Positions 14,109-59,159 of a stretch of DNA of 64,000 nt are shown here, one piece after another. A program made the position numbers and the translations under genes. The stretch spans positions 147,583-211,582 of the forward strand of contig JAJJXM010000085.1 in the NCBI GenBank assembly GCA_024516155.1, given 5' to 3'. Positions within the stretch are counted from its first letter, which is position 1, and every line of letters begins with the position of its first letter. This stretch comes from Pyronema omphalodes. Lineage: Eukaryota; Ascomycota; Pezizomycetes; Pezizales; Pyronemataceae. The notes under the pieces were generated by a model that made no database searches, had not been told where the DNA came from, and saw only the letters and a program-made list of their open reading frames with translations.

Positions 14109-14271
14109 TGTGAACCTGGGCACAGTCCTGACCATGCAGAGGCTTTTCGATTGTTCTTCCAAGTGCTTCGTCCGAGGGTAGACAAACACTTCGTTCTCAA
14201 GACAAACAGACACTTGGTTCTCAAGAACTGACAGAGGTTGTCCCAAAGATAGGCTAGGAGGTAAATCAATC
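14109..14271 (-). repeat. LTR-A (U5 side) left of LINE-1 copy 1
   Basis: Starts TGTGAACCTGGGCACAG on the plus strand, which is the LTR-A 3' end in reverse complement. It is cut at GTAAATCAATC (14261-14271) by the 3' end of a LINE; the LTR resumes at 19799. This is the 5' LTR of element A. Confidence 0.85.
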
Positions 14272-14558
14272 TGATCTTTGTTTTATTGTGACTAGAGCTA
14301 CATGGCTATTGCACTCCACCTACTTCATACCCTTCTTCCGCCTTTATAAAAACATCAAGTAACATAAGGAAATAAGACATAAGCATAAACAGAAATCAAA
14401 GTGGTACAAAGCGTGCGTATCTAAGGCCAGTATTTTAAAACATAGGAAAGAAAAGACATTTATCCGTCAAAAGCCGCGTATCCCAGTACCGCTACTCCTC
14501 CGTCCATCCTTTCCTTCTCGTTATTGTCAAGTGGTGTGGCTCTACAGCGTATCTCCTT

Positions 14559-17500
14559 CTAGTATCCCAAGCCTGTTCGTTTGGCGAACTTCAGTAACGC
14601 AGATATGCCGGTCTGGTTGGCGAAGAGTTGTTGTATAGTGAAGTTTGTGGATGTGGCCTGACATAATCCTTGTCGCGTGGCGTGTAGTTTGGGGCAGTCA
14701 AGTAGGTAATGTTCGGCGGATATGAAGCCGGATCCGCAGTCGCAGGTGGTTGGTTGTTGTTCAAGGTGGGGATCGATTGGTGTACGTCTGCATCTAATGC
14801 GGAAGAGGGCCCGTGAGGTGCGGAAGGGTAGGTGTTCGAGGTGTCTGGGGTACGACAGCGAAGGGGGTAGTCCGTCCGGGGCGTCTTTTTGCCATTGTTC
14901 GAGGAAGTGTTGTCTGACTTGGGCTTTCATCCACGCATGCGAGGTGATGGCTGAGTGACAGGGGTTTTGTAGTTGTGTTCCGAGTTTTGCTAAGCTGTCT
15001 GCAAGTTCGTTGCCGGTGATATTTGTGTGCGAGGGGGTCCAGAGCATGGTGAAGGTCCATATCTTGGTAGCGAGGTGTTGTGCCAGTTGGAGTGTCTCTC
15101 TGGCATACTGGTGGTTGTTGGAGTTGTTGCGTAGGGTCTCTATAGCCGCTTGGTTGTCGAGGCATAGAAATACTTTCGCTGGTTCTGTGTTCGGGAGCAT
15201 GCGTGATCCTTCCGTTGTGGCGTGTAGTTCTGTGTCGAAGACTTCGCATAGTGTTCCGAGGTGGCAGTGGTGTGATTGGAGGTGTTGTGGGCCGTTTGTT
15301 GTTATTTGGTAGAGGGCTGCCCCGCAGCCTGTGGTGTTGTTGTCAAGTTTGGATCCATCGGTGTAGAGGAGGTATGTCCCGAGTGGTAGTGAGTTCAGCC
15401 AGGAAAGGTGGCGGGTGTTGGGTTCGTCTGTCTTGTTCGGGTTTGGTGAGGGTGTGGTGGGGATGTGGAAGGCTGGGTTTTCTGGGGTGCGGTTTTCAAT
15501 TGTGCCGACCAGGAGATGTTCAATGTGTCGTCGGAGGTGTGATAGTGCGGGTGATGTTTTTGGGCATTTTGATGTGGGTTTGAGACCTGCTAATGGGTGG
15601 TGAGCGGGTAGGAAGAGGAGTCGTAGCGCATATTTTGCTGAAATGTAATCGAGGTAAATGTGGAGAGGAGGTAGGTGTGCGCAGATGCGTAGTTTCGTCA
15701 GGTTGGTGCTTAGGGTGAGTCCTGTGGCCCAGCGGATAGCTTTGTGGTATGTTGCAGTTAGTGGTCGCAGAGTGGTGTCTTTCCCGGTCCACCAGGCTGG
15801 GGAGGCCCACAGCATTTTTGGAAGGAGGAGGGTCAGGATGAGGTGTCGTGCCATAAGGGTGTTTAGTCCGTTTGAGCGATGTCGAAGGTGTAAGAGGGAG
15901 CCCAGGGTATTCTTGCCGGCTGCTGCAGCTTGTGTCGTGTGTGGGATGAAGGTGAGTGATTCGTCAATGTTGACGCCGAGGTATTTGATGCTTCGGGTTG
16001 GCGTTATCGTTATATTGTTTAGTGTGAGTTGGGGGAGAGTTGTGAGCTCCGTTGCTTTGTGGTGGCTTGCGCTTGGGACGCAGTGGAGGAGTTCAGTTTT
16101 GTCCGGTGAGAAGCTGAGGCCAAGATGTTTGCCACGTTCTGTGAAGTGTTCGGTTCGTGTTGTGAGGCGGTCTACCGCGAAGTGTCCGGAGTTTGCTGAT
16201 TGGAGGAGGCCGGTGTCGTCGACATATGACGCGGTAAGTTCCTTGGCTGGTTGGTGATTGACTTCGAGCATACCGTTGGCATAGATGAGGAACAGGATAG
16301 GTGAGGCGGGTGATCCTTGCGGCAGTCCACATCGAAAAGGCTTGGGTGTCTCTAGTTCTTGATCGAAGGAGCAAGCTAATGTTCGATTGGAGGTAAATGC
16401 TTTTGTCCATGCAATGAGGTAGGCAGGCATGTGTCGCTGTCGTATAACTTGGAGGAGGGGTGTTGGGTTGGTGTTATTGAAGGTGCCCTCGATGTCCTGT
16501 GCCAGAAGTGTAGGGCGGGGTGGGTGTTTCATTTTTCCCGTGGCGGGGATTGCGAGGTCGGTGCTGATGGGCGTGATGATTGCTAGTAGTGCATCCATTG
16601 CAGAGTATTGTTGCCTGGCCCCCATCTGGTGTGGTGATATGGCCAGGCATGCGGAGGCTGATTTGGCTAGTCGTAGAGCGGCAATCTTCTCGTATACCTT
16701 GGAGATGCAGGGTAGGAGGGATATCGGGCGGTATGATTTTGGCGAAGTGTACGTTCTTTTGCCTGGTTTGGGAATAACTACGCATCGGGCTACCTTCCAT
16801 TGCTCTGGGAAGGTCTCGTATCGGAGAAGGGCGTTGAATAGTTTGGCTAATGCGGAATGTTGGGCTTGGTGATATTTGGCGATCAGTTGGTAGGTGATGT
16901 TGTCGTGTCCGGGTGCAGATGCATATTTTAATTTTCGTATGACTTGGCTTACTTCGTGGTTGGTCACGGGGTGGAAGTTGTTGCTTGTGTCCTTGTGTGT
17001 TTTGACAAATTGAGGTGGGATGTCCGGGGGCTCATGTGTTTGGTGTGGGAATAGGGAGTTTCGTAGTATGTTGCATTTTTCTTGAGATGTTTCGTTTCCT
17101 TCCAGGGGTTGGAGTGGTCGGTTGTTTGTGTCACCAGCGGTAAGGCAGTTCCATACTTCTGTGGAGGTGGAATTCTGCAGCGTTGTTACCCAGTATTGTT
17201 CTTTGGCGAATTGAACTGCTTGCGTCCATTCGTAGCGGTGATGTTTGGCTTGCACCTTGAGGGCGGGGTTTGTGCGGTCTGAGCGATAGCGTTGTTCAGC
17301 TTGTTGTAGTTTCTTTTTCTTCTTGTTGAGGTCTGGATGCCACCATGGTGCATGCTTTGTTCTGGGCTGGACCCATGGTACTGCGGCATCGGTGGCTTTG
17401 TGCATGAGGGAGGTGATGTTCTCGGCCGCACGGCAGGCGGTCTGTGCGTTTGTGATGTTGTCGAGGTTGACCGGGTTGTCGATGATCGTTTGGCGATATG

Positions 17501-18251
17501 ATTGCCAGTCGGCTTTACGCCATGCTCGTTTGGGTGTTTTGTTAAGGATGGTGAGGTTCATGTGGATAGTGCAGATGGCGTGATCGGAGGTTGAGTCTGG
17601 GTTGATCTCGTGGATGAGGATTTTGTCTGTAATGCTACCTGCAGAGAAGCATAGGTCGATGACTGACGGATGCATTCCATTGCGTGGGTAGTGTGTTGGG
17701 ATACCTGGTTCGTTGTGCAGGATGAAGTGATGTTGGCCCATCCAATTAGCGATTGTATTGGAGTGATCTCGGTGGCGTCGGAGTTGGTCGTCATCTATGG
17801 TAGTGGTTCCCCCCCACCATTCATGGTGGGCGTTCATGTCCCCCATGATGATTGCAGGGGTCACGGGTCGAAAGGAGGAGAGGAGGTTGGCTAGGGCGTT
17901 TGGTCTCCCAGGTGAGTAGAAGTTGTAGATCATTATTCCTTGGTTATTAGGTAGGTAGAGTTTGGTGCCAAGGAATGAATTCTGGTGGGTGAAGGTGGTG
18001 GTTGCATACACCCCTGGTAGTCGTCGTATGTAGGTGGTGCATAGTGGTTTTTCGTCAGTGGGGGTGAACATATGGAAATCGGGATGTGTTGGCGGAAGTT
18101 TGGTGTGTTCGATAGCGGGTTCTTGCAGGAGTATAACGAGTGTTTTTGGATTAGATGCAAATGATTGTAGTGCTGATGTTGTTGTAGCGTGTCCTTTGGC
18201 GCAGTTCAGCAGCTGCACACATGCTGTGTCCATTTTTGTTGTGTTATTCAT
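14559..18251 (-). CDS. LINE-1 copy 1 ORF2: endonuclease, reverse transcriptase, RNase H (1230 aa)
   Basis: Uninterrupted 1230-residue ORF. AP-endonuclease motifs: LLQEPAIE (about 41), GDMNAHHEWW (137), SVIDL (196) and SDHAICTI (222). RT: APGHDNITYQ (447), YRPISLL (507), DIEGTFNN (586), GLPQGSPASP (642) and catalytic SYVDDTGLL (675). RNase H: YTDGSKLD (963), Glu near 1008, CLDNQAA (1030) and GNELADSLAK (1080). A C-terminal zinc-binding motif CDCGSGF...H...C lies near 1170. The enzyme nicks target DNA and primes reverse transcription of its own RNA there. The start ATG lies in the stop of ORF1 (ATGA), so translation probably depends on reinitiation. All catalytic residues I can check are present. 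Confidence 0.95.
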   Translation of the reverse strand: MNNTTKMDTACVQLLNCAKGHATTTSALQSFASNPKTLVILLQEPAIEHTKLPPTHPDFHMFTPTDEKPLCTTYIRRLPGVYATTTFTHQNSFLGTKLYLPNNQGIMIYNFYSPGRPNALANLLSSFRPVTPAIIMGDMNAHHEWWGGTTTIDDDQLRRHRDHSNTIANWMGQHHFILHNEPGIPTHYPRNGMHPSVIDLCFSAGSITDKILIHEINPDSTSDHAICTIHMNLTILNKTPKRAWRKADWQSYRQTIIDNPVNLDNITNAQTACRAAENITSLMHKATDAAVPWVQPRTKHAPWWHPDLNKKKKKLQQAEQRYRSDRTNPALKVQAKHHRYEWTQAVQFAKEQYWVTTLQNSTSTEVWNCLTAGDTNNRPLQPLEGNETSQEKCNILRNSLFPHQTHEPPDIPPQFVKTHKDTSNNFHPVTNHEVSQVIRKLKYASAPGHDNITYQLIAKYHQAQHSALAKLFNALLRYETFPEQWKVARCVVIPKPGKRTYTSPKSYRPISLLPCISKVYEKIAALRLAKSASACLAISPHQMGARQQYSAMDALLAIITPISTDLAIPATGKMKHPPRPTLLAQDIEGTFNNTNPTPLLQVIRQRHMPAYLIAWTKAFTSNRTLACSFDQELETPKPFRCGLPQGSPASPILFLIYANGMLEVNHQPAKELTASYVDDTGLLQSANSGHFAVDRLTTRTEHFTERGKHLGLSFSPDKTELLHCVPSASHHKATELTTLPQLTLNNITITPTRSIKYLGVNIDESLTFIPHTTQAAAAGKNTLGSLLHLRHRSNGLNTLMARHLILTLLLPKMLWASPAWWTGKDTTLRPLTATYHKAIRWATGLTLSTNLTKLRICAHLPPLHIYLDYISAKYALRLLFLPAHHPLAGLKPTSKCPKTSPALSHLRRHIEHLLVGTIENRTPENPAFHIPTTPSPNPNKTDEPNTRHLSWLNSLPLGTYLLYTDGSKLDNNTTGCGAALYQITTNGPQHLQSHHCHLGTLCEVFDTELHATTEGSRMLPNTEPAKVFLCLDNQAAIETLRNNSNNHQYARETLQLAQHLATKIWTFTMLWTPSHTNITGNELADSLAKLGTQLQNPCHSAITSHAWMKAQVRQHFLEQWQKDAPDGLPPSLSYPRHLEHLPFRTSRALFRIRCRRTPIDPHLEQQPTTCDCGSGFISAEHYLLDCPKLHATRQGLCQATSTNFTIQQLFANQTGISALLKFAKRTGLGY

Positions 18252-19729
18252 AATTCTTCGGTTCTACTTGCGTGAGGTGTGGGTTGCCTTCTTGCTTCGG
18301 CTTCGACAGGGTTGGCCGTGTTGATTTGATCCATGTGTCTGATGCGTGTCGGGCACAAGGGGTCGTTTGCTTTGTGGGGTCCATTGCAGTTTGAGCATTT
18401 GATTGGTGGGTGGGTGCAGGACATTCCGGCCTTGCATGACGGAATGGAGCATGGGTGGGTCCTGGTGCCGTGGTTCTGTGCACAGACAGCGCATACAGGT
18501 TCGGTGGCTCTGCAAAGTTTGGGGTGGTGGCCAAATTGTTGGCAGTTGGTGCATTGGGAGGACGGTTGCCAGGAGTGGTATTCCCCTATCTTGCAGAGGC
18601 GGTTACATATCGCGAGTCTATTGGTGCCTAGTTTATTTAGATTGATGGTGCCAACGAGTGAGACTACTAGAGTGGATGCAGTCTTTTCTGCACGGCGTTC
18701 AGCTGGGACCAACCAGCGCGGGTCTGGTCCGAGGCGTAGGGAGGGATAGGTCGACTCGATTTCTGATCGGATGTATGTGAGGCTAGCGTTGGTGGGAACA
18801 TTGTGTAGAAGGAATTTAGTCCAGCGCGCATTAATGCGTGCATCGGAGGGTCGGAAGTTGTTGGTGACGTTGGTGATAATCTGGAGGTATGGGGCATAGG
18901 CTTCGGCCTTGGTGGTGGGGTTGGTAGTGAGGACAAGGCGGTTGTTGCTAGTTATGCGGGCCAAGGTGAATGCAGGTAGGTTGATATCCGTGGAGTTTTT
19001 GATGGCGGTGTTGATGGCATCAAGTGCGTGGTTGGCTGTGGTGTCGGCGTCGGTGATCTTATCCTCCAGGGTAATGATAACCTCGCGGTCGACACCTGGG
19101 AGCGCTTTCGGGATCAAGGTGGTAGGGCCTTTCTTGTCTTTCTTGGCCCTCACTGTGATGAATGGTTTTTCTTCGGCAGCGGCGGAGAGTCTGGAAGCAA
19201 AGGACTGCTCATTGTGCCAGGCGTTGGCAGGGTTGTTGAGGGGGGTGGGCTGGTAGAGAGGTACGGCAGGTGTGGGCGCAGGGGCAGTGAAACGTGCCTG
19301 TTCAGCTGGTGTTTTCCCGGGGTTCTTTGTGTTGGCAGGTTGGAGTTTCCGGATTTGGTTGGTGAGTTCGGCGACGTGACGTTCAAGCTGGGCAATACGG
19401 TTGGCGCTGGCATTGTGAGCGTGGGCGAAGGCATTTACCATGCGGTCAAAGCGGGCAAGCATCTGGTTCAGGGAGGTGGAGTTGATTGTTTCAAACATGG
19501 TAGGACGGTTGATGTCGTCCGGGGCAGTGTTGTTGAGGCGCTTGCGGGGGGAGCTAGTGCCGGTAGCAAGAATGCGTTGGGGTACTGGAGTGTCGTAGCG
19601 CGAAGGAGTAGGAGAGAAAATCTCTGACTGAGGGGGCTGAGTGAGGGAAACAGCAGGGGCAGCAGAGGCGGAGCGTTGCTGTTGCTGTTGTAGGTTTCCG
19701 AATAAAGTGGGGAGTTTTTGCTGGGACAT
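18248..19729 (-). CDS. LINE-1 copy 1 ORF1: RNA-binding protein with three zinc knuckles
   Basis: Starts MSQQKLPTL; an in-frame ATG 15 nt upstream (19744) is an alternative. After a Gln-rich N-terminus and a Pro/Ser-rich stretch comes a coiled-coil-like segment (IAQLERHVAELTNQIRKLQ). A central globular region follows, then cysteine knuckles near the C-terminus: CTNCQQFGHHPKLC, CAVCAQNHGTRTHPC and CSNCNGPHKANDPLC. This matches ORF1 of fungal Tad-like LINEs, which coats element RNA. Its stop TGA shares bases with the ORF2 start. Confidence 0.92.
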   Translation of the reverse strand: MSQQKLPTLFGNLQQQQQRSASAAPAVSLTQPPQSEIFSPTPSRYDTPVPQRILATGTSSPRKRLNNTAPDDINRPTMFETINSTSLNQMLARFDRMVNAFAHAHNASANRIAQLERHVAELTNQIRKLQPANTKNPGKTPAEQARFTAPAPTPAVPLYQPTPLNNPANAWHNEQSFASRLSAAAEEKPFITVRAKKDKKGPTTLIPKALPGVDREVIITLEDKITDADTTANHALDAINTAIKNSTDINLPAFTLARITSNNRLVLTTNPTTKAEAYAPYLQIITNVTNNFRPSDARINARWTKFLLHNVPTNASLTYIRSEIESTYPSLRLGPDPRWLVPAERRAEKTASTLVVSLVGTINLNKLGTNRLAICNRLCKIGEYHSWQPSSQCTNCQQFGHHPKLCRATEPVCAVCAQNHGTRTHPCSIPSCKAGMSCTHPPIKCSNCNGPHKANDPLCPTRIRHMDQINTANPVEAEARRQPTPHASRTEEL

Positions 19730-19798
19730 TGTGTTCCCAAGCAAAGAAGAAAGCGAAAGGGTAAAAGCAATAGAAGAGGCTGTGCAACCTTAGACCGA

Positions 19799-20035
19799 GA
19801 AGTAAACTAATCGATCACAGGCCGAATAAACTTAAGGGTCTCTCTTGAGGTATTGGTGTTCGAAAGGTAACGTCGTAGGTACAGATCAGTTCGGATGACC
19901 CCATTCGTTTGCCTTGCATTCTCATCAGAATTCCCTTCTCTTGCAAGCCCTCTGGTAGTCATGCTTGGCGGAACATATTCTCAAGTATAAAGAGGTGTAC
20001 CTTCACCGTCATCTTTTCTCTTCATCAGCGGCATG
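19799..20035 (-). repeat. LTR-A remnant right of LINE-1 copy 1, internally deleted
   Basis: Resumes the LTR after the LINE (GAAGTAAACTAATCGATC, then the conserved GGCCGAATAAACTTAAGGG). About 700-800 bp present in the copy at 39842-41096 is missing between GTACAGATCAG and TTCGGATGACC. It stops where another LTR-A end begins (TGTGAACC at 20036). Sequence type matches the 39842-41096 subfamily rather than the 6082-7983 one. Confidence 0.7.
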
Positions 20036-20437
20036 TGTGAACCTGGGCACAGTCCCAACTATGCAGAGGCTTTTCGATCGTTCTTTCAAGTGCTTCGTCT
20101 TAGGGTAGACAAACACTTTGTTCTCAAGACAAACAAACACTTCGTTCTCAAGAACTAATGGAGGTATTCCAAAGATCAAGCTAGGAAGTAAATCAATCGA
20201 TGACAGGCTGAATAAACTTAAGGGTTGTCTTCGGAGGTATTCGTTGGTGTAAATAGGTATCGTTCGCGTAGAGGATCAATGGATGATGATGAAGGAGACA
20301 GAGGGAAGACATACCGTCTTTTATAGACTTTCGTCTACATATTCGCCCAGCCTTCCTTGGGGAACCAACTGCCAAACTTAGCATAGGAGATAAGACATGG
20401 GTGAAAGCTGTGACGCATCTGCTGAGGCTTGCATTAT
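20036..20437 (-). repeat. LTR-A fragment (3' part), reverse orientation
   Basis: Reads TGTGAACCTGGGC... on the plus strand with the conserved AATAAACTTAAGGG block and an intact TATA-type site in reverse (TCTTTTATAGAC near 20327). At about 20437 the sequence switches abruptly to LTR-A in the forward orientation. Confidence 0.75.
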
Positions 20438-21249
20438 GGTAAGGAGTATTCCGCAATACACGGCTACGATAGGGGCTGCATAGGAACAGAAGATTCCAAG
20501 AAGATGCAGATGCGGCGCAAGGGTGTTATCCGGTGTTACAAGCTGGGTGGACAGTTTGGCGAAGAGATAACGCAGAGTCTAGTCAGCAAACAGGAGTGGA
20601 ATGCAGAACAAGGGTCAACAGTTCATCAGCATGAGACGACGTCCAGCAGGGAACTCCACTCAGGAAACCAGTTTGATGGAACTGATATGACGCGTCCTTG
20701 GGCCTAGAACTGCCAACTTGGAACAAGACGGCTTTTGCATCCACACCAGGGTATGACTGTGTGCAAGTGCGCGCAGGTCGGGCACATGTTACATCACACA
20801 GGAATATGACGGAGTGATCTACTCCGGTAGGGCATCAGGATGCCTTATAATGTCAGTGACCTCTACTTGCAATCGAGATTCTCTAGGGAGATCTATGATG
20901 GTGCGACTCATCCGATAAATCACTCATGAGTCATTGTCACAAGAGTTCATGCATGATGCAGTCAGACGGTGTTGGCCTCCGGTGTGACTCATAACCCCAG
21001 CACCTCATTGGAAGGTGTGGTAGTACGGTGAGCTATTTCAAGGATTACTCTGACCAGGGCGAGCATAGTGCAAGCGACCGATTAATTTAATTGCGCGCTC
21101 AGTATGACGCAAGCCTCAGCAGATGCGTTACAGCTTTGACCCATGTCTTATCTCCTAAGCCCGGTTTGGCAGTTGGTTCCCCAAGGAAGGCTGGGCGAAC
21201 TTGTAGACGAAAGTCTATAAAAGATCCTATGTCTTCCCTCTGTCTCCTC
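20438..21249 (+). repeat. LTR-A fragment, forward orientation, split by LINE-2
   Basis: Forward LTR-A starting within the U3 part (GGAGTATTCCGCAATACACGG) and running through a TATA box (TATAAAAG, 21216-21223) to CCCTCTGTCTCCTC (21236-21249). There LINE-2 is inserted. The LTR continues at 36718. LINE-2 thus sits about 30 bp downstream of the LTR TATA box, in LTR sense. Confidence 0.85.
21236..21249 (+). repeat. Target-site duplication of LINE-2, left copy
   Basis: CCCTCTGTCTCCTC, repeated exactly at 36704-36717. The 14-bp match defines LINE-2 as the 15.5-kb interval between the two copies, including its nested insertions. Confidence 0.9.
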
Positions 21250-21557
21250 GCCGGAACGCCTGCAGACTTCCAGCTCCACGAAAAAAAAAAAAAAAAGATT
21301 CCTAACAAACTTCCGAATCCGAAGAGAAAGAATACTGATTACCAAGCGAGATAGAAAGAAAAGGGAATCCTCAGGGCGAATTCAACCCCTCGAGCGGCAT
21401 CAAGCGACGAGCTCCTGGTTCTGGCTGAACTCCAGTGAGAATCAGGTCCCCGGACCACAGGGCCAACCCAACAAGACCCCCAAAACAGAACCACAACCCC
21501 TCTCCCCCCCCCCCCCCCAGGTCTAAAGAAAAACAAAAAAAAAAAGAGAACACCAAA

Positions 21558-37955: not shown

Positions 37956-38055
37956 TATTGAAGCTTTCAGTAGAGAGGTTTATTCGATCAGTGGTTCTTC
38001 GTTTGAAAGGTATTCAACAAATAGATTTCCCAAGAAGCTAGGATGTAAACTAATC
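37956..38055 (-). repeat. LTR-A U5 fragment, reverse orientation, left of half-LINE
   Basis: CCCAAGAAGCTAGGATG and GTAAACTAATC (38045-38055) match the U5 side of LTR-A in reverse. The LINE-type insertion follows at 38056 and the LTR resumes at 39842 with the same GTAAACTAATC. Confidence 0.65.
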
Positions 38056-39841: not shown

Positions 39842-41096
39842 GTAAACTAATCGATCACAGGCCGAATAAACTTCAGGGCCTCGTCCTGAGGTATTTGGTG
39901 TAGAAAGGTATAGTCGTAACAAGAGATCAAGTTGCTGATGCTAGAGGAGACGGTGGGAAGACTTAGGGTCTTTTATAGACTTTCGTCTACAAGTTCGCCC
40001 AGACTTCCCAAGGGAACCAACTTCCAAACTAAGCTTAGGAGATAAGACGTGAGTCAATTCTTTGACAAATCTGCCGATGGCTCGCATCATACCATGTGCG
40101 CAATTATATTAATTGCTCACTTGCATGATGACCTTGTGTCAGATTAATCCTTGACATTCCTCGCCGTGCTACCACACCTTCCAATCAGGTATCGGGGTTG
40201 AGCGCCTAGTGGAGGGGTACTCCACGTCAGCGCATAATGCAATGACTCCTCTGATAATGACACGTGAGTCATACATCTTATGAGTCGTCTTGATCATAGA
40301 TCTCCCTTGAGAGTCTTGATTGCGAGTGAAGGAATCCGACATCATAAGGCAGACTATGCCTTTCCGGAGCGCACTGCCCCGTCTCATTCCTGTGTGATGT
40401 CATAACTGCCCCACATGCGCACACTTGCACGGTGCCACACCCTGGTGTGTACGCAATCTCCGTCTTATCTTGCAGTTGGTAGTCATTGCGCTAAGGTCGC
40501 GTCATATCAGTTCCATCCAACAGTTTTCCTGAGTGGTGTTCCTTGCTGCAGGACGTCGTCTCATGCTAAGGCAATCTTGACCCTTGTCCTAAGCTCCACT
40601 CCTGTTGGCTGACTAAACTCTGCCTATTTCCTTGGCCGACAATCCGCCCAACTCAGACTTCGGATGATCCCATTCGTCTGCCTTGCATTCTCATGAGAAT
40701 TCCCTTCTCTTGCAAGCCCTCTGGTAGCCGTGCTTGGTGGAACACAACCTCAAGTATAAGGAGGTGTCCCTTCGCCGTCGTCTTCTGTCTCCATCAGCGT
40801 CGTCTGTAGTTTTCTCATGGGTAAGTGGACACCCATGAGGTAATTTGTTCCTCGTTCCCATCCATCTGTGATCCTCCCAAACTGACAGTGTATAACAGCT
40901 GGCGACGCCTCGGGCGGGGATCCTCGTGAGTTCCTGTCGGAGAGTCACGAATCACGTGACGTGGCTAGCTGGAGCTCCTCAGGGGGTTCCGGCCCGGGAT
41001 ACTAACCTTATCATTCATTCTCCTGTCGAGTTTGCCATGTTCTCTAAATGTTATACATGTTACCTATTCTATACTCACACAATATAGGGTGTGACA
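39842..41096 (-). repeat. LTR-A, reverse orientation, right of half-LINE
   Basis: From the duplicated target (GTAAACTAATC) through the AATAAACTT block, an intact TATA box in reverse (TCTTTTATAGAC near 39967), the U3 repeats and the start TGTCACACCC in reverse (ends 41096). The half-LINE therefore lies about 120 bp downstream of the LTR TATA box, in sense. This copy defines the second LTR-A subfamily. Confidence 0.85.
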
Positions 41097-41620: not shown

Positions 41621-41712
41621 TTGCGTAACCGCTACACTTATCTTTACCCGTTATTAGTTATAGATTCTATATATTTTTCTCTGCCCCTCTTGATTTTAAT
41701 CACTCTCCCACG

Positions 41713-46483: not shown

Positions 46484-46729
46484 TGGATTTGGTTTGAATT
46501 AATAAGTGTGTGTTTGTGATTGAAGTATGGCTGCTGATTGCTGATAATGATGATGATTGAATTGTGTTGTTTTCTATTTGGGTTGTTCTTCTTATGGGTT
46601 TTCACTTCTTCTTTTATGGATAATTGGATATTTTCTTTTTCTATGGTATTGTTCTTGTTTTCTGTTATGATGGATTGTTATTTCTTCTTATTATTATGTT
46701 TGTAGCACCCGTCCTTAGACGAGGGGGTG
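46484..46729 (+). other. Copia 3' untranslated region and polypurine tract
   Basis: T-rich, non-coding. Ends GACGAGGGGGTG directly before the 3' LTR, a clear polypurine primer. Confidence 0.8.
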
Positions 46730-46890
46730 TGTTGAAGTGCGCCTAAGGCCCTAGTGCTTAGGTGGAGGTGGACCACTCTCTATGTATAGGCACTCGCTGG
46801 CCCGTCTATGCCTGACTCCACACACTCGTTAATACATTCGGTCACCACCTCCACTTTCTTCTTCTCCTCATGCCTGTGAGACCTTCGACA
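46730..46890 (+). repeat. Copia 3' LTR
   Basis: 161 bp; about three substitutions from the 5' LTR (for example CTCGCTGGCC versus CTCGCTTGCC). Followed by ACCTA. Confidence 0.95.
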
Positions 46891-46895
46891 ACCTA

Positions 46896-47589
46896 TGAGG
46901 GGGATTCTGCAATCGTTGATATTGTGGAAACATCGCTCGCTGCAACTTGAAAATAGCAGGCTGCAGACGATTTCCCCAAACATTGAGAAAAGGGATTCAT
47001 CACGGTGCCCTGGCTTGGGGCATTAGGCGAACACCGTAGACAGGGATGGGTGTATAGAAAATGGAAGGTACTGGAGGGGACGAGGGTGAAGTGTTGTGCA
47101 TGTAAATAGCATGAAGCCGTGAACACCAAATAACAACGAGCGCCATGACATAAATCACCCACCTGAGCCAAACAAAAGCTTTTGTTTTAGCAGCGTCAGC
47201 TGTTACCACAAGCATGGTTGCGATCCACCACTTTCAACATTTTTATTATTGGTCCGCATGATCCAAGTGCACAAGTACACCGTCAGAGATACAGAGTCCC
47301 GCTGCATGTCACAATCGGTGCATAGTTTGATCTTGACTTGCACCCATCGAGTCTACTGCATATCATTTCTTCGGTCAGTACCCAAACGATCAAAGTAATT
47401 CTGTAACTGAAATATGGTGTCTAACACCCGGTATTCAAATTTTCTCACCTTCAAATATAGAAGATTCTGCGATATTTTCAATTAGACAACACACAGTATC
47501 GTTACAGACATCAAGCGAACCGGACATGGCTTTGTGTGTTGTTCTTTTTCGACTATCTACCCCATGGGAATGAAAGGCATTGATGTACC
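46896..47589. other. About 700 bp without recognisable gene
   Basis: Lies between the Copia 3' flank and the Harbinger transposase. Short open frames on the minus strand show no motif. It may include the 5' flank and terminal repeat of the Harbinger element, but I could not find a terminal inverted repeat. Confidence 0.4.
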
Positions 47590-50187: not shown

Positions 50188-51342
50188 GCAAGTGAATCCA
50201 CATCAAAGGCATTGGTAGTTGCGGTATGAACGCCTCGCGGGATATTGTCCACTGCACACGACATTCATTATGGTACCGGTACACATATGCATACAACATA
50301 CTCGGAGGAGATATTCCTGATGCATTGAATGAACCATGGTGAATATTCCCTATAATTCTTCTCTTGCGTGTTAACTGATGTGCGTACATTGTTGCCATTG
50401 ACTGTGGGCTTTTTTTGGTGTCCCGGTTGTGGTTCGCGGTCACGGGTGGGGTTCGGTGTCATGGTCGGAGGGCACTTTGAACTGAGGGCAGCTGTCACAC
50501 CCTATATTGTGTGAGTATAGAATAGGTAACATCTATAACATTATGAGAGAATGGCAAACGTGTCTGGAGAATGAATAATAAGGTGAGTATCCCGGGCCGG
50601 AACCCCCTGAGGAGGTCCAACTAGCCACGTCACATCATTCGTGACTTTCCGAAAGGACCTCACAAGGATCCCGGCCCGAGGCGTCGCTACCTGTTATTCA
50701 CTGTCAGTTTGGGAGGAACACAGATGGATGGGAACGAGGAACGACTTACCTCATGGGTGTCGACTTGCCCCAAGTGAATCCACATCAAAGGCATTGGTGG
50801 TTGCGGTACGAACGCCTCGCGGGATATTGTCCACTGCACACGACATTCATTATGGTACCGGTACACATATGCATACAACATACTCGGAGGAGATATTCCT
50901 GATGCATTGAAAGAACCATGGTCATTATCCCCCATAATTCTTCTCTTGCGTGTTAACTGATGTGCGGACATTGTTGCCGTTGACTGTGGGCTTTGTTTGG
51001 TGTCCCGGTTGTGGTTTGCGGTCACGGGTGGGGTTCTGTGTCACGGTCGGAGGGCACTTTGAACTGAGGGCAGCTGTCACACCCTATATTGTGTGAGTAT
51101 AGAATAGGTAACATCTATAACATTATGGGAACATTGCAAATTCGTCAGCAGAATGGATTATAAGGTGAGTATCCCGGGCCGGAACCCCCTGAGGAGGTCC
51201 AACTAGCCACGTCAGATGATTCGTGACTTTCCGAAAGGACCTCACAAGGATCCCGGCCCGAGGCGTCGCTACCTGTTATTCACTGTCAGTTTGGGAGGAT
51301 CACAGATGGATGGGAACGAGGAAGGACTTACCTCATAACCCT
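50188..51342 (+). repeat. 582-bp tandem duplication: unknown flank plus truncated LTR-A
   Basis: Each unit has about 300 bp of unrecognised sequence (from AAGTGAATCCACATCAAAGG, at about 50191 and 50774) ending GGGCAGC. About 270 bp of LTR-A follow, starting TGTCACACCC (50493 and 51075). The first unit stops at GTGTCGACTTGCCC. The second joins directly to an integrase fragment at about 51343. Confidence 0.8.
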
Positions 51343-52205
51343 GGAAATCATTTCTTGGGACGTTAGGAATAAAACCAAGAATGTCAACAGACTTCCACCC
51401 ACAAACAGATGGACAAACGGAAGGGCTCAACCAAACAATTGAAGCTTACCTCCGCTCTTTTGTTAACCACGAAATGGACGACTCGGCTGATCTCTTACCC
51501 ATGGCTGAGTTCGCATACAATAACTCAGTCACAAGCGAAACTGGACTTTCACCCTTTTACGCCAACTACGGATTTTATTCAAATACGAGCAACCCTTCGG
51601 CAACTGCTGTGCGCAACCCAGCCAGCAAAGCCTACGCCCACTGGATGCATACGATACACGAAGCAGCCAAGTTAGCCCTTCAAAAAACACAAGAAAGAAT
51701 GAAACACTATGCAGACCAGAAACAACAGGAGGCACCCCAATACCAAGTAGGAGACTTGGTCATGTTAGATGGACGGAACATAAGAACAAGACGCCCATCA
51801 AGGAAGTTAGACCATAAACTACATGGTCCCTTCCAAGTCGAAGAAGTCATCTCCCCAACAGCAGCACGACTTACGCTCCTACGAAAATGGAAGATACACA
51901 ACTTCTTCCATACCTCACTACTCGAGCCCTTTAGAGCAGGAACTCGGGCTCCACCTGATACAAACAAAATTTTACAGGAAGCAGACGACGTGGAGGGAAG
52001 CGAGGAACATGATGTCGATGAAGTAATCAGCAGCTACAAATCTGGCCATCGAATCTTATACCTTGTTGAATGGCTAGGCTGGCCCAGCAAAAAAGACTGG
52101 ACGGCAGAACCATTCGACAACTTTTCAGTAGGAGGTCAGGAGAAGTTACGAGAGTTTCATCTCAAGTACCCTGACTCCCCGAGGGGCTACCGACTCAAGG
52201 ATTAA
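51343..52205 (+). pseudogene. Element A-type pol fragment: end of integrase plus chromodomain
   Basis: Begins mid-integrase (FLGTLGIKPRMS) and keeps the FHPQTDGQTEG segment with the catalytic Glu. The next residue, usually Arg, is Gly. The integrase C-terminal part and chromodomain (DVDEVISSYKS, YLVEWLGW) are open to the stop at 52203-52205. Everything from late U3 through the integrase core is deleted. Closely related to element A at 8154-9869. Confidence 0.9.
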
Positions 52206-52376: not shown

Positions 52377-53634
52377 TGTCACACCCTATATTGTGTGAGT
52401 ATAGAATAGGTAACATGTATAACATTCAGAGGACATGGCAAACTCGACAGGAGAATGAATAATAAGCTTAGTATCCCGGGCCGGAACCCCCTGAGGAGCT
52501 CCAGCTAGCCACGTCACGTGATTCCTGACTTTCCGAAAGGACCTCACGAGGACCCCGGCCTGAGGCGTCGCTACCTGTTATTCACTGTCAGTTTGGGAGG
52601 ACCACTGATGGATGGGAACGAGGAAGGACTTACCTCATGGGTGTCGACTTACCCATGAGAAAACTACAGACGATGCCGATGGAGAACAGAAGACGACAGC
52701 GAAAGGACACCTCCGTATACTTGAGGTTGTATTCCACCAGGCACGGCTACCGAGGGGCTTGCGAGACAAGGGAGTTCTCATAAGGATGCATGGCGGACAA
52801 ATGGGATCATCCGAAGACTGAGTTAGGGGGATAGTCAGGCAAGGAATAAGGCAGAGTCTAGTCAGCCAACAGGAGTGGAGATCAGGACAAGGGTCAAGAA
52901 TGCATTGGCATGAGACGACGTCCTGCAGCAAGGAACACCACGAAGGGAAACCGTTGGGCGGAACTGATATGACGCGACCTTAGGCCAATGACTGACAACT
53001 GCAAGATAAGACGGCGATTGCGTCCACACCAGGGTGTGGCTGGGCTCAAGTATGCGCAGGTGGGGCAGTTATGACATCACACAGGAATGGGACGAGGCAG
53101 TGCGCTCCGGTAAGGCATAGTCTGCCTTATGATGTCAGATTCCTTGACGCACAATCGAGATTCTCTAGGGAGATCTATGATCAAGACGACTGATAAGATA
53201 TATGACTCACTATCATTATCAGAGGAGTCATTGCATTATGCGCTCAAGTGGAGTAACCCTCCACTAGGCGCTTCACCCCAATATCTGATTGGAAGGTGTG
53301 GTAGCGTGGCGAGGAATGTCAAGGATTATTCTGACACGAGGGTCATCAGGCCAGTGAGCAATTAATATAATTGCGCATACAGCATGATGCGAGCCATCAC
53401 CAGATTTGTCAGAGAATTGACTCACGTCTTATCTGCAAAGCTTAGTTTGGAAGTTGGTTCCCCTGGGAAGTCTGGGCGAACTTGTAGACGAAAGTCTAGA
53501 AAAGACCCAAAGTCTTCCCACCGTCTCCTCCAGCTTCAGCCACTTGATCTCTACTTGCAACGTTACCTATCTACACCAATACCTCAGGACGAGACCCTTG
53601 AGTTTATTCGGCCTGTGATCGATTAGTTGACTTC
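52377..53634 (+). repeat. LTR-A, forward 3' LTR, split by LINE-1 array
   Basis: Begins TGTCACACCC after a polypurine tract and runs through U3. The TATA-box position reads TCTAGAAAAG (53495), a mutated form. After GAGTTTATTCGGCCTGTGATC comes GATTAGTTGACTTC (53621-53634), which is the LINE target copy. The U5 end lies beyond the window. Confidence 0.88.
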
Positions 53635-53688
53635 TCGGTCTAAGGTTGCACAGCCTCCTCTATTGCTTCTACCCATTCGCTTTCTCCT

Positions 53689-55182
53689 TTGCTTGGGAAC
53701 ACAATGTCCCAGCAAAATCTCCCCTCTTTATTTTCCCAGCAACAACAACAGCAGCAGCAACGCGCTGCCTCTGCTGCCCCTGCTGCCTCCCTTACTCAGC
53801 CCCCTCAGTCTGAGATTTTCTCTCCCACTCCTTCTCGCTTCGGAACCCCGGCTCCCCAACGCATTCTTGCTACTGGCACTAGCTCCCCTCGCAAGCGCCT
53901 CAACAACACTGCCGCGGACGATACCAACCGCCCCACCATGTTCGACACTACCAGCTCCACCTTCCTGAACCAAATCCTTGCCCGCTTCGACCGCATGGAA
54001 AATGCCTTTGCCAACGCTCAAAACCCCAGCGCCAACCGCATCGCCCAGCTTGAACGCCACGTCGCCGAACTCACCAACCAAATCCGCAAACTCCAGCTCG
54101 CCAACACCAAGACCACTGGAAAAGCACCTGCCGAACAGGGCCGCGCCACTGCCCCTGCGCCCACCCCCACCGTACCCCTCTATCAGCCCACCCCCATGCA
54201 TGACTCCACCAATGTCTGGTTCAATGGGCCGTCCATTGCTTCTAAGCTCCCTGCCGCTGCCGAAGAAAAACCTTTCACCATCGTTCAGGCCAAGAAAAAG
54301 AAGACCCCCACCACCTTGATCCCGAAAGCCCTCCCACGTGTTGACCGCGAGGTCATTATTACTCTTGAAGGAAAGATCACCAACCCGGAAACGACTGCCG
54401 ATGAAGCCCTTGTCGCGATCAACAAAGCCATCAAGGACTCTGCCGATATCTCCCTACCCCCTTTCACCCTTGCCCGCATCACTAGCAACAACCGTCTCGT
54501 ACTCACCACCAACCCCTCGACCAAAGCCGACGCTTACGCCCCCTACCTGCCGATCATCACCAACGTAACCAACAGCTTCCAGCCATCCGAGGCCCGCATC
54601 AACGAACGCTGGACCAAGATACTTCTGCACAACGTGCCAACAAACGCCACCCCCTCCTTCATTCGCTCGGAAATTGAGTCCACATACCCCTCCCTTCGTC
54701 TTGGCCAGGATCCTCGATGGCTAGTCCCTACTGAACGCCGTGCTGGAAAAGCTGCCTCCTCCATTGTTGTCTCCCTTGTCGGTACAGTTAACTTAAGAAA
54801 GTTAGGTACCACAAGACTAGCAATCTGCAACCGCCTCTGCAAGATCGGCGAATACCACTCATGGCAACCCACCTCACAGTGCACCTACTGCCAGGAGTTT
54901 GGACACCACCCTAAACTCTGCAACGCAGTTGAACCAAGATGCGCAGTGTGCGCCCAAAACCACGCTACCCGGACCCACCCATGCACCATCCCCTCCTGCA
55001 AAGGTGGAATGTCATGCACCCACCCACCAATCAGATGCTGCAACTGCAACCAGCCACACAAAGCCAACGATCCCACGTGCCCATCCCGCATCAAACACCT
55101 GGAACAACTCAACAACGCCACCCCTGCCGACGAAAGCATGCAACCCACACCTGACGAAATGAGAACCGATGAGCAACTATGA
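53689..55182 (+). CDS. LINE-1 copy 3 ORF1 (497 aa)
   Basis: Starts MLGNTMSQQNLPSLF, followed by a CAG/CAA-encoded Gln run, a Pro-rich stretch, a coiled-coil-like segment (IAQLERHVAELTNQIRKLQ), a central domain, and knuckles CTYCQEFGHHPKLC, CAVCAQNHATRTHPC and CCNCNQPHKANDPTC. Its TGA overlaps the ORF2 ATG (ATGA). No lesion seen. Confidence 0.92.
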   Translation: MLGNTMSQQNLPSLFSQQQQQQQQRAASAAPAASLTQPPQSEIFSPTPSRFGTPAPQRILATGTSSPRKRLNNTAADDTNRPTMFDTTSSTFLNQILARFDRMENAFANAQNPSANRIAQLERHVAELTNQIRKLQLANTKTTGKAPAEQGRATAPAPTPTVPLYQPTPMHDSTNVWFNGPSIASKLPAAAEEKPFTIVQAKKKKTPTTLIPKALPRVDREVIITLEGKITNPETTADEALVAINKAIKDSADISLPPFTLARITSNNRLVLTTNPSTKADAYAPYLPIITNVTNSFQPSEARINERWTKILLHNVPTNATPSFIRSEIESTYPSLRLGQDPRWLVPTERRAGKAASSIVVSLVGTVNLRKLGTTRLAICNRLCKIGEYHSWQPTSQCTYCQEFGHHPKLCNAVEPRCAVCAQNHATRTHPCTIPSCKGGMSCTHPPIRCCNCNQPHKANDPTCPSRIKHLEQLNNATPADESMQPTPDEMRTDEQL

Positions 55183-58100
55183 ACAGCACAACGAAAATGG
55201 ACACAGCATGTGTGCAGCTGCTGAACTGCGCAAAAGGCCATGCTACAACAACATCAGCACTATTTTCATTTGCTTCTAACCCCAAAACACTCATCATTCT
55301 CTTGCAAGAACCCGCTATCGAATACACTAAACTCCCCCCCACACACCCTGATTTTCATATATTCACCCCCACCAACGAAAGACCCCTGTGCGCCACTTAC
55401 GTACGCCGGTTGCCAGGAGTCCATGCCTCAACTGTCTTTACCCACCAGAATTCATTCCTTGGGACCAAACTATCCCTACCTGACATAGCCCCACTGATGA
55501 TCTACAATTTCTACTCACCGGGAAAACCAAATGCACTGGCCGAGCTCCTCCCTTCCTTCCGACCCCAACTACCTGCCATTATCATGGGTGATATGAATGC
55601 GCACCATGAATGGTGGGGCAGCACTACGACAATTGACGACGACCAGCTCAGATGCCACCGAGACCACTCCGACACCATAGCCAACTGGATGGACAGCCAC
55701 CAGTTCTCTTTGCACAACCAACCAGGCATCCCGACACACTACCCGCGCAACGGCATGAGACCATCCGTCATCGATCTATGCTTCTCTGCCGGTAGCATAA
55801 CAGAGAAGATCCTTATGCAGGAAATCAACCCCGACTCAACCTCCGATCACGCCATATGCACCATCCACATTGACCTCAGCACCCCTGCCCAGACACCCAA
55901 ACGGGCATGGCGAAAGGCCGACTGGACACTCTACCAACGAACAATCATTGACAACCCAGTAGACCTGGATAATCTTACTAGCCCAGAGGCAGCCCTGCAC
56001 GCTGCAGACCTTATCACCACCATTATTCATAAAGCCATAGATGTAGCAGTACCATGGGTAAAACCAAGGGCTAAACAAACCCCATGGTGGCACCCAGACC
56101 TTAACAAAAAGAAAAAGAAATTACAACAAGCAGAAAGACGCTTTCGCTGCGACCGTGCCAACCCGAGCGCCAGACTGCAAGCTAAGCACCAACGATACGA
56201 ATGGAAACAAGCCATACAATTCGCCAAAGAACAGTACTGGGTGACTAGACTGCAGAACAGTAATGCCACCGACGTCTGGAACTGCGTTAGATCAGCAAAT
56301 ACACACAGCAAACCCCTCCCACCACTAGAAGGCAAAGATAGTTTCCAGGACAAGTGCGACATCCTGAGAAATGCCTTATTTCCACCCCAGTCACACAACC
56401 CTCCCAACATCCCCCCCAATTTCGTCAAGCAACACAAAGCAACACCTGACCCTTTCATCCCAATTACGGACAATGAGGTCAGCCAAGTTATCCGAAAACT
56501 TCGTTACTCCTCAGCACCCGGACACGACAATATCACCTACCAACTGATCGCACAATTCCACCTTGCACAACCTACAGCACTAGTTCAATTATTCAACGCC
56601 CTCCTCCACTACGAGACCTTCCCTGCCCAATGGAAGGTAGCCAGATGCGTAGTAATTCCCAAGCCCGGAAAGACAAACTATACATCACCTAAATCTTACC
56701 GTCCGATCTCCCTCCTCCCCTGCATATCGAAAGTATACGAAACGATAGCTGCTCTCCGACTTGCCAAAACAGCATCTGACTGCCTTGCAATATCACAACA
56801 TCAGATGGGAGCCAGACAACAGTATTCCGCCATTGACGCCCTCCTCACCATACTCACACCAATCAGCACTGACCTTGTTATCCCAACAACCGGCAAACTA
56901 AAGCACCCTCCGCGACCAACCCTCCTAGCACATGACATTGAAGGTGCTTTCAATAACACCAATCCTACGCTACTCCTCCAAGTTATGCAACAACGTAACA
57001 TGCCACCCTACCTCATTGCATGGACCAAAGCCTTCACTTCCGACCGAACACTAGCATTCTCCTTTGACCAACAGCTCGAACCCCCGAAAGCCTTCTGCTG
57101 TGGCTTACCACAAGGCTCCCCTGCATCGCCAATCCTCTTCCTCATCTACGCCAACGCGATGCTCGAAGTAACCCACCAACCAGCGAAAGAACTGACCGCC
57201 TCCTACGTTGACGATACCGGCCTCCTCCAATCTGCTAACTCCCGAAAATTCGCCATTGATCGCCTGAAGACACGGACCGAACACTACACAGAACGTGGTA
57301 GACACCTCGGACTCAACTTCTCTCCCGTCAAAACAGAACTACTCCACTGTCTCCCAAGCGCAAGCCACCACAAAGTCACTGACCTTACCAAACTACCACA
57401 ACTCTCTTTGGATAACAAGACAATCACACCAACACGGAAAATCAAATACCTCGGCATCAACATCGACGAATCCCTAACATTCATTCCCCATACCACACAA
57501 ACAGCATCGGCCGGTAAGAACACTCTCGGATCACTACTTCACCTTCGACACCGATCAAATGGTCTCAACACCCACATGGCCCGACACCTTATCCTTACCC
57601 TCCTCCTCCCGAAAATGTTATGGGGCTCCCCAGCCTGGAGGACCGGCAAAGACACCACCCTACGCCCCCTAGCAGCCACCTACCACAACGCACTACGGTG
57701 GGCAACTGGCCTCCCACTCAGCACAAACCTCACGAAACTACGCATCTGTGCTCACCTGCCACCCCTACACGTCTATCTAGACTACCTCTCAGCACGATAC
57801 GCCTTGCGACTCCTCTTCCTACCCACCCACCACCCCCTATCCGGACTCAAACCAAACCCAAAATGCCCGAAGACAGCACCCGGACTCTCCCACCTTCCAC
57901 AACACATACAACACCTTCTCAGCAACAACATCGAACACCGAACCACACTACCATCCTCTTTCTCGATGCACACCTCCCCCTCACCGAACTCGAACAAAAC
58001 CGACGAACCAAGCACACGACACACACAAGGGTTGACATCACTACCCCCCAACACATACGTACTTTCACAGACGGATCCAAGCTTGACGATAACTACACTG

Positions 58101-58969
58101 GATGTGGAGCAACACTTTACAAGATGACACCTAACGGTCCTGAACACCTATCATCCCACCACTGTCACCTCGGCCAGCAATGTGAGGTCTATGATGCCGA
58201 ATAACATGCCACCACCGAAGGACTACGACTCCTTGACAACTACACGCCGGCCCTTGTCTACCTTTGCCTCGACAACCAAGCAGCAATCGCCACACTTCAA
58301 CACAACGCTGAAAACCATCAATACGCCAGGGAAACTCTCAACCTGGCCGAACTCCTCGCGACCCAAGGGTGGTCCTTCACCACCATCTGGACCCCCTCCC
58401 ACACAGGCATTACCGGGAACGACTTTGCCGACAGCCTTGCCAAAACCGGAGCACAGTCACGAAATCAATGCCGATCTACAATAACCTCACACGCATGGAT
58501 GAAATCACAAATCCGCCGACGATTCCTCCAACAATGGCAGAATGATGCACCTGATGGGCTACCCCCATCCCTGATGTACCCAAAACACCTTCAACACCTA
58601 CCATTCCGCACCTCCCGGGCATTATACCGGATCCGATGTGGACGAACACTCATTGACCCCCATCCGGAGCAACCCCCTACACCATGCGACGGCGGCACAG
58701 GATTCATATCCTCCCTACACTACCTTCTTCACTGCCCAAAGCTGCTTGCGGCAAGACAGGAACTATATGCGTCAACCAGCACGACAATCACACTACACGA
58801 ACTGTTCAACAATCACACCGGCAGAACTGCGCTGTTAAAATTCGCTAGACGGACTGGACTTGGATACTCGAAGGAAATACACTGCAGGATCACACCACTG
58901 AGGAACAATGATAAGGAAAGGATGGATGGAGGGATAGCAACTCTGGGATATGGAGCGTTTGACGGATGA
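55179..58969 (+). pseudogene. LINE-1 copy 3 ORF2, broken in RNase H
   Basis: Open for 982 codons with endonuclease (GDMNAHHEWW, SVIDLCF, SDHAICTI) and RT (DIEGAFNNTN, GLPQGSPASP, SYVDDTGLL) intact. A one-base deletion near 58062 shifts out of frame just before TDGSKLD. The correct frame then meets TAA at 58202-58204 (DAE, stop, HATTEG, where copy 1 has ELHATTEG). The rest continues to 58969. The C-terminal zinc motif reads CDGG instead of CDCG. Retrotransposition is unlikely from this copy alone. Confidence 0.9.
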
Positions 58970-59145
58970 TTGTTTTTCTTTTCCTACATTCTGAAAATAC
59001 TTGATTTACATATACTTGACTTGTACTACATGTTTTTCTTTATATTTCTTTTGTTGGTTTTATGTACTTTGGCGGTATAAGGGTATTGAGAAGGTGGAGT
59101 GCGATAGCTATATAGCTCTAGTCACAATAAACAAAGATCAGATCA
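58970..59145 (+). other. LINE-1 copy 3 3' untranslated region
   Basis: T-rich, then GTGGAGTGCGATAGC...CTAGTCACAATAAACAAAGATCAGATCA. The same 3' end is present in copies 1 and 2 (minus strand of about 14272-14330 and 38056-38115) and is probably what ORF2 recognises. Confidence 0.8.
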
Positions 59146-59159
59146 GATTAGTTGACTTC
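59146..59159 (+). repeat. LINE target duplication shared by copies 3 and 4
   Basis: GATTAGTTGACTTC, identical to 53621-53634. It is both the right flank of copy 3 and the left flank of copy 4. Confidence 0.92.

Follow-up and report, generated by a model that had tools for sequence, protein, structure and literature searches.

A site-specific LINE of Pyronema omphalodes that lands at one point of chromovirus LTRs and probably uses them as promoter

In the window, a stretch of 64,000 nt from Pyronema omphalodes, LINEs repeatedly stand at what appears to be one point of an LTR, which raises the question of whether the LTR retrotransposon is a specific niche for the LINE and how the LINE would enter it. 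The sequence-only reading held that three LINEs interrupt one LTR family, LTR-A, at the same point, in LTR sense and between copies of the target. The elements concerned are the following.

14108..14271, minus strand: right part of LTR-B (from about 1243) after copy 1, beginning GATTGATTTAC
14272..19798, minus strand: LINE copy 1, full-length
14559..18263, minus strand: ORF2 frame of copy 1, 1234 aa stop to stop, with Exo_endo_phos_2 (EN), RVT_1 and RNase_H (Pfam)
18248..19789, minus strand: ORF1 frame of copy 1, 513 aa stop to stop, with Cys/His knuckles near the C terminus, seen by eye
19799..19890, minus strand: LTR-A-type leader preceding copy 1, from about -77 as far as the half-site
20035..20443, minus strand: LTR-B fragment next to copy 1, with an unfilled motif
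38045..38055, minus strand: 3' half-site GATTAGTTTAC after the half-LINE, the LTR continuing
38056..39839, minus strand: half-LINE, ORF1 only, 5' and 3' ends complete, member of a repeated family
38360..39940, minus strand: ORF1 frame of the half-LINE, 526 aa stop to stop
39840..41096, minus strand: LTR-A (1-1256) upstream of the half-LINE
51339..52205, plus strand: final part of the pol frame preceding the LTR of copy 3, with SH3_Tf2-1 and a weak chromodomain
52377..53634, plus strand: LTR-A (positions 1-1257) interrupted by copy 3, judged a 3' LTR from the purine tract before it
53621..53634, plus strand: 5' half-site GATTAGTTGACTTC before copy 3
53635..59145, plus strand: LINE copy 3, full-length, ORF1 followed by ORF2 with EN and RT, the ORF2 frame broken near its end
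59146..59159, plus strand: half-site GATTAGTTGACTTC separating copies 3 and 4
59160..64000, plus strand: LINE copy 4, in tandem with copy 3; window and contig end inside it

ORF2 of copy 1 contains PF14529, PF00078 and RNase_H in one frame, so that EN and RT occur together, and its ORF1 gave no Pfam match. The 3' end of copy 3 leads through the half-site directly into copy 4, and these two copies therefore form a head-to-tail pair at one site. The target motif is common to at least two LTR families, LTR-A of 1357 nt and LTR-B of about 1410 nt. LTR-A has the features of a paired LTR (TG...CA, PPT), with an identical 1357-nt pair 7.5 kb apart, the ends TGTCACACC...TTCACA and a purine tract. Its TATA box lies at 1120, ATCAGCAAC at 1158, and the cut falls after 1243. 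The chromodomain beside LTR-A is weak (E 5.7e-4, below the cut-off), and one above the cut-off is found in the frame 8154-9869, near LTR-B. The unfilled motif in the LTR-B fragment neighbouring copy 1 lies at about 20190-20215. LINE-2, present in the window from about 21250, was considered as a second LTR-targeting family and rejected, its LTR-B flank being absent at the three other LINE-2 5' ends among the matches listed.

At the three insertions the common point, between GGCCTGTGATC and GATT, and the LTR sense are evident. That all of them interrupt LTR-A is not: to the right of copy 3 the half-site and the fourth LINE stand in place of an LTR, and copy 1 is followed at its 3' end by LTR-B 1243-1410 and preceded at its 5' end by an LTR-A-type leader. 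Across the 60.8-Mb genome to which the window belongs, 126 LINE ends were surveyed: the target half-site adjoins all 58 3' ends, and 67 of the 68 5' ends are preceded by the LTR motif, sometimes degenerate, or by the tail of another LINE. The copies thus do not lie in unrelated sequence, and the view of the LTR as the niche of the LINE is supported. The 3' ends comprise all 45 tails found and 13 from a second search, with a query ending in 20 nt of half-site and the next LINE; the 5' ends comprise all 38 half-LINE starts, 2 met incidentally and 28 full-LINE starts. The latter were drawn from 29 (27 together with C47 and C211), one of which, C226:143253, follows a LINE tail and was dropped in de-duplication, leaving it outside the 68. 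A few starts in LTR context are degenerate or leader-only, and the divergent start L029 was counted as LTR context by alignment. The half-LINE start C211:105997 has no recognisable LTR around it; it loosely matches a LINE tail and was counted as the exception all the same. Among 24 RT-bearing copies, the 3' part is uninterrupted in 20, each of which ends at the target site; C197 also does, provided that the tail 12.8 kb onward belongs to it, and copy 4, C115 and C48 run off their contigs.

Throughout the genome nearly all LINE copies surveyed enter between GATC and GATT, in LTR sense. The target motif occurs 402 times at up to two mismatches and its reversed control not at all, and the probability that an insertion placed at random meets this very base in this orientation is about 402/(2 x 60.8 Mb) = 3e-6, by which chance is excluded. 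About 380 target sites are empty and at least 32 are filled; 7 further filled 3' junctions were located via the half-site itself and hence carry no weight as evidence. Single sites may hold arrays, some mixing LINE types, and 1-3 GATCA units are present at LINE 3' ends. With nearly all copies at one sequence and in one orientation, the family is a site-specific non-LTR retrotransposon. The ORF2 endonuclease is a putative source of specificity for the LTR site, to which annealing of an RNA primer could contribute.

The target copies reported to flank the insertions were compared in 29 pairs (solitary copies or entire arrays whose two outer ends are visible, incomplete arrays excluded), which were typed by hand and compared by eye with the genome-wide end survey. 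The two copies are identical in 8 pairs and unequal in 21, and variation is far smaller among the 5' copies than among the 3' copies. GATTAGTTTAC forms the 5' half-site in 22/29 and the 3' half-site in 7/29 (p=1.8e-4), and is found in 29 of 100 empty sites listed (p=9e-6), the first 100 perfect pattern matches of 380, without indel variants. Since the copies are often unequal, most of them do not qualify as plain target-site duplications, and that model was rejected for most copies. Some pairs do resemble true duplications, with the rare GATTAGTCTAC on both sides at C177 and 11 nt of host-type GATTGATTTAC preceding the leader at C112:547.9 kb.

Seven insertions have only an LTR leader upstream, with breakpoints all no more than 87 nt ahead of the site; at 23 of the 29 half-LINE 5' ends that lie in LTR context, reading extended upstream for only about 97 nt, and breaks farther off would be missed there. 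Two of the seven leaders begin at the same base, ATCAGCAAC (LTR-A 1158), which is 38 nt past the TATAAAAG of the LTR. In one of these, C47:9394, LTR-A up to GGCCTGTGATC is followed by LTR-A from 1158 to the half-site and then by the half-LINE, so that a second complete leader stands at the cut. In the other, the array at C112:551.6 kb, LTR-B 346-808 passes into LTR-A 1158-1256 and a half-LINE; LTR-B resumes after the array, with 435 nt missing and an exact 3' junction. The remaining leaders start at -79 (C226), about -77 (copy 1), -61 (C129), -48 (C112:1663 kb) and -32 (C112:547.9 kb). A start at 1157 for copy 1, which adjoins an LTR-like fragment, was replaced on realignment, and C12:29789 was withdrawn as a leader-only case because LTR sequence is present farther upstream. 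The insertion at C112:1663 kb adjoins an A/T-rich repeat, the surroundings of C129 and copy 1 are complex, and several of the seven could be LTRs shortened by other events. At C17, LTR-A lies on the left and LTR-B-like sequence on the right, from which recombination between LTRs or LINEs appears to occur; assembly error may be a source of such chimeric sites. The entry point is about 86 nt downstream of the predicted LTR start site, and the insertion scars, two of which have the exact start in common, point to the LTR promoter as the most likely origin of the LINE RNA.

The preferred reading, with a probability of roughly 0.85, is that of an APE-type site-specific LINE, similar to R1 and R2, for which the chromovirus LTR is both landing site and promoter, in the role of 'rDNA'. 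The LINE would target one position in the part of the LTR past the start site. Because it always lands in sense and downstream of the TATA box, the LTR promoter would make its RNA, beginning at ATCAGCAAC and consisting of a leader of ~86 nt, usually followed by GATTAGTTTACTT, and then the LINE proper. The 3' tail would be joined to the fixed half-site of a new LTR by target-primed reverse transcription, and the leader in the cDNA would pair with the homologous leader of that LTR, resulting in a clean 5' junction. Poor homology or an early stop of synthesis would leave the leader visible, whether target DNA is lost or retained, and the regenerated half-site would admit further copies, giving rise to arrays.

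It is unlikely that a site-specific LINE with an internal promoter generated ordinary target-site duplications and that the leader-only contexts arose later by LTR-LTR recombination, truncation or gene conversion. Such a LINE would agree with the host-type half-sites on both sides at C177 and C112:547.9 kb, and with the recombination seen at C17, but not with the prevalence of unequal half-sites and the uniformity of their 5' side, nor with the second leader of C47; recombination, moreover, has no reason to begin at the clustered breakpoints, two of them at a single base. Entry of LINE cDNA by homologous recombination, through the LTR leader and 3' read-through and without a site-specific endonuclease, is quite improbable. 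The leader is homologous to LTRs, and an AATAAA about 9 nt before the LINE end implies that the RNA may read into the LTR. However, the required upstream homology is absent, and the 3' junction exact, both in the insertion after a LINE tail (C112:547.9 kb) and in that into LTR-B with 435 nt lost, and the GATCA units resemble primed slippage.

That the LINEs are not one duplicated insertion, as had been proposed, is borne out by comparing 20 empty LTR-A copies with the 12 filled LTRs for which some 1.2 kb of upstream sequence was available. Ten of the 12 resemble an empty LTR more than they do any other filled one, the margin being 0.6-2.1 points, and LTRs that are only 90.3% alike harbour LINE parts that are 98.7% alike; the filled LTRs differ, and the insertions are therefore independent. 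Multiplication of one ancestral LINE-in-LTR insertion by spread of the LTR element or segmental duplication is scarcely credible and, for the entire family, already refuted, as two LINE types, LTR-A and LTR-B hosts, the many empty sites and the mixed arrays do not fit one event, although single duplications may occur: the clean pair C68 and C7:106.9 kb, mutually closest among the filled LTRs (97.1%, LINE parts 99.1%), may be one duplicated insertion. Joint carriage of LINEs by the two LTRs of a single element was considered for the C162 pair (501771, 511105), which is spaced accordingly, and rejected, as the 3' junctions differ.

The half-LINEs form a uniform ORF1-only family of 1.78 kb, with 1777-1794 nt in 29 of 38 copies, these 29 being those for which a 3' end could be assigned. 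As in HAL1-like elements, ORF1 alone is present, the ends are complete and the copies are repeated. ORF1 is open in 3 of 6 copies examined, with dN/dS of 0.22-0.24 among the three open frames. Half-LINE and full LINE have in common a conserved 3' tail of ~60 nt, ending AAAGATCA; a conserved hairpin in this tail was unsupported (z 0.67, 0.00, -1.98). The half-LINE, retaining leader, ORF1 and 3' tail, is presumably mobilised in trans by ORF2 of the full LINE, as the same site and the shared tail suggest. Somewhat favoured is a chain of three tiers, in which the chromovirus LTR would give site and promoter, a promoterless LINE would be confined there, and the half-LINE would borrow the RT of the LINE, the RNA-borne leader replacing the target-site duplication and allowing precise 5' integration without a ribozyme.

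R1, TRAS and SART are APE-type site-specific LINEs with EN and RT in ORF2 and an exact repeated target; the present LINE is similar in these respects, its target being an LTR. Tx1L of Xenopus, reportedly specific for the DNA transposon Tx1D, likewise has another mobile element as specific target, whereas here LTRs are used, apparently also as promoter. HAL1, the half-L1 of mammals, is an ORF1-only non-autonomous LINE like the half-LINE; unlike HAL1, the half-LINE has the target site and 3' tail of the autonomous LINE, yet its ORF1 is 45% identical to that of copy 1 (over 390 aa). According to passages in PMC3774820 and PMC3414825, R2 (28S rDNA; RLE-type) also has a fixed 3' junction; it depends on transcription of its target, as is proposed for the present LINE, and its non-autonomous partners, the SIDE parasites, keep 5' and 3' ends. 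R2 RNAs that retain upstream 28S sequence give uniform 5' junctions, as described in part of PMC3774820, and a similar association is suggested here from DNA. In contrast to R2, the present LINE has an APE-type endonuclease domain and an LTR retrotransposon as target, its leader starts at the predicted start site of the LTR, and no HDV-like ribozyme was found in the 64-kb window (no Rfam match at the gathering score, which a divergent one could escape). CNL1 of Cryptococcus and the telomeric MoTeR are also fungal LINEs, and CNL1 forms arrays; according to PMC12810828 both are R2-related and subtelomeric, whereas the present family is APE-type and resides in LTRs.

Known targets of site-specific LINEs, as listed in PMC5035012, include rDNA, snRNA or tRNA genes, telomeres, microsatellites and some transposons, and our literature search met no case of a LINE using an LTR as landing site and promoter. 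An LTR retrotransposon in this double role would be a new niche; if the reading is true, the RNA supply of the parasite tracks the activity of the host LTR, and every LTR newly formed offers a further site. Because of the leader scars, the old question of LINE 5'-end joining becomes testable in one genome, with dozens of filled sites beside the empty ones, and an LTR-site-specific endonuclease, if shown, would be useful as a tool. Relatives elsewhere comprise 29 proteins, mostly without a name, the best being about 45% identical.

Copy 1, the half-LINE (an ORF1-only element; window 38056-39839, minus strand) and copy 3 are genuine insertions with one common insertion point, as the sequence-only reading had stated. 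Two details of that reading require amendment: at the same insertion point, the right flank of copy 1 is formed by the chromovirus LTR family LTR-B rather than LTR-A, and the right side of copy 3 is occupied by a fourth LINE, without LTR. In the whole assembly (60.77 Mb in 232 contigs, the window being C217:147583-211582) the target motif GGCCTGTGATCGATTRRTTNACTTC has 402 matches at up to two mismatches, with none for the reversed control, and is located inside LTRs. Contig C1 contains two identical 1357-nt LTR-A copies, approximately 7.5 kb apart, which start with TGTCACACC and end with TTCACA, with a purine tract preceding the 3' LTR. LTR-A carries TATAAAAG at position 1120 and the LINE insertion point (GATC^GATT) after position 1243; the same motif is present in LTR-B (~1410 nt), there with GATTGATT. 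Allowing three mismatches, the genome contains 380 empty target sites and at least 32 filled outer 3' junctions, the latter number being a lower bound as indel variants escape.

A query with the reverse transcriptase (RT) reveals, among the matches listed, 24 LINE copies with at least 78% identity over the matched parts, after which the matches drop to ~35% and belong to another LINE family. The 3' part is uninterrupted in 20 of these copies, all of which terminate at the site; the C197 copy also does so, provided that a tail 12.8 kb further on is its own, and three copies run off their contigs. Flanks were inspected for every end from searches yielding 45 flank-less 3' tails, 38 half-LINE 5' ends and 27 full-LINE 5' ends, and for a few extra ends. 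The 58 3' ends continue into the right part of the LTR (37), via the half-site (the target sequence from the insertion point onward) into the 5' end of a next LINE (20), or into GATTGATTTAC followed by LTR leader and a LINE (1). Of the 68 5' ends, 48 are preceded by an LTR or its leader, in some cases with the motif degenerate, and 19 by a LINE tail. Thus, 58/58 3' ends and 67/68 5' ends fit the target site or an array, and a genuine site-specific LINE with an unusual target is strongly supported. The remaining end, at C211:105997, is preceded by neither; no other half-LINE 5' end that was examined lies outside both LTRs and arrays. The flank of this end contains GGATCAGATTT, a partial target match. 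A small control shows that LINEs of this genome need not have LTR flanks: LINE-2, the other LINE in the window, has an LTR-B flank at its 5' end, which three other LINE-2 5' ends among the matches listed lack. The start of the window LINE-2 copy adjoins LTR-B position 1153 (20442-21260), near the presumed start site of that LTR.

Multiplication of a single insertion, which the sequence-only reading had dismissed, is indeed contradicted by a comparison of 12 filled LTRs with 20 empty LTR-A copies: ten filled LTRs are closest to an empty copy, by margins of 0.6-2.1 points, while those at C68 and C7:106.9 kb are each other's closest. LTRs only 90.3% identical host LINE parts that are 98.7% identical, and the insertions involve two LINE types and two LTR families. 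At C162:501771-512898 two half-LINEs are separated by 9.33 kb, a distance that matches the LTR-element period with one half-LINE added, and an empty site follows 7.5 kb beyond the pair. Their 3' junctions are unlike each other, which implies separate insertions or recombination.

The half-LINE is of a different lineage from copy 1, as proposed, with 45% identity in ORF1 over 390 residues (copies 1 and 3 share 78%). Its length is 1777-1794 nt in 29 of 38 copies, those paired with a 3' end. ORF1, its only frame, is open in three of six examined copies and shows a dN/dS of 0.22-0.24. The half-LINE and the full LINE share roughly 90% identity over their final ~60 nt, and the preceding sequence is hardly alignable; the half-LINE is presumably mobilised in trans via this tail.

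Head-to-tail arrays comprise up to four elements per site. Half-LINEs and full LINEs are mixed at C112:540-551 kb, C184:83-94 kb, C185, C213, C189, C7 and C47, and the arrays at C9, C167 (twice) and C172 contain half-LINEs only, as far as read. Inner junctions run from LINE tail through half-site into the next LINE, with an additional leader piece at C112:547.9 kb as the sole exception. The LINE tail ends with ...AAAGATCA, and GATC-A-GATT therefore almost re-creates GATC-GATT. Throughout the genome, one to three GATCA units are observed between tail and half-site (e.g. C167:1145656), suggestive of slippage during priming.

The flanking half-site copies, previously considered target copies, are mostly not plain duplications. 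Both outer ends are visible for 29 elements or arrays, and in only eight of these are the two copies identical over 11 nt. The variant GATTAGTTTAC forms the 5' copy in 22/29 and the 3' copy in 7/29, and is found in 29 of 100 sites taken from the 380 empty ones. In our reading of these frequencies, the 3' copy would mirror the LTR that received the insertion, and the 5' copy would mostly derive from the incoming element. Host-type copies also occur, at C177, where a rare variant flanks both sides, and at C112:547.9 kb.

In LTR-A hosts an incoming leader (the LTR stretch from the inferred start to the half-site) is not readily distinguishable from the host's own. A leader is exposed at seven sites, where the upstream part of the LTR is absent from its normal place. 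At C47 the LTR reaches the cut, after which LTR-A restarts at 1158 and continues to the half-site and a half-LINE; at C112:551.6 kb LTR-B stops at 808, LTR-A resumes at 1158, and the array is followed by LTR-B from 1243. The other five leaders start at -79, ~-77, -61, -48 and -32 relative to the cut, and some of these may represent LTRs shortened by other events. No breaks were seen between -88 and -280 in 24 LTR-context sites read at least ~280 nt upstream (19 full-LINE sites, C47, the C112 array, C17, C12 and the window half-LINE); breaks further upstream do exist. A search for the 1158 start beside GATC returned C47 (exact) and the C112 array (two mismatches), and no others. The base at 1158, an A preceded by C, lies 38 nt downstream of the first base of the TATA box, as expected for a transcription start site. 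Given these leader starts and this start-site-like position, the LINE RNA would most likely begin at the LTR start site, and there is good indirect evidence that the target LTR is also the promoter of the LINE.

The best-scoring named relative, 25% identical, is from the polypore Meripilus lineatus. R2 is reported to depend on co-transcription with 28S rDNA; in cases where upstream 28S sequence is retained on its RNA, the 5' junctions are mostly uniform, which is attributed to annealing of that sequence to the target (PMC3774820). The present LINE appears to follow the same logic, with the LTR replacing 28S rDNA; unlike for R2, no ribozyme was detected by an Rfam search of the 64-kb window. 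LINE targets listed elsewhere include transposons (PMC5035012), and a limited search of literature on the topic and its parallels, HAL1 included, found no LTR-specific LINE.

The window contains further repeats:
28013-34862: a further element of Gypsy-like type; its repeats share 99% identity across 300 nt, and its 1302-residue open frame by eye resembles a chromodomain pol
35916-36500: a long array of a 10-nt repeat, in which a 210-nt register recurs in 39 overlapping copies
41448-46899: an LTR element of a second kind, whose terminal repeats share 96% identity across 170 nt and whose frames by eye are Copia-like
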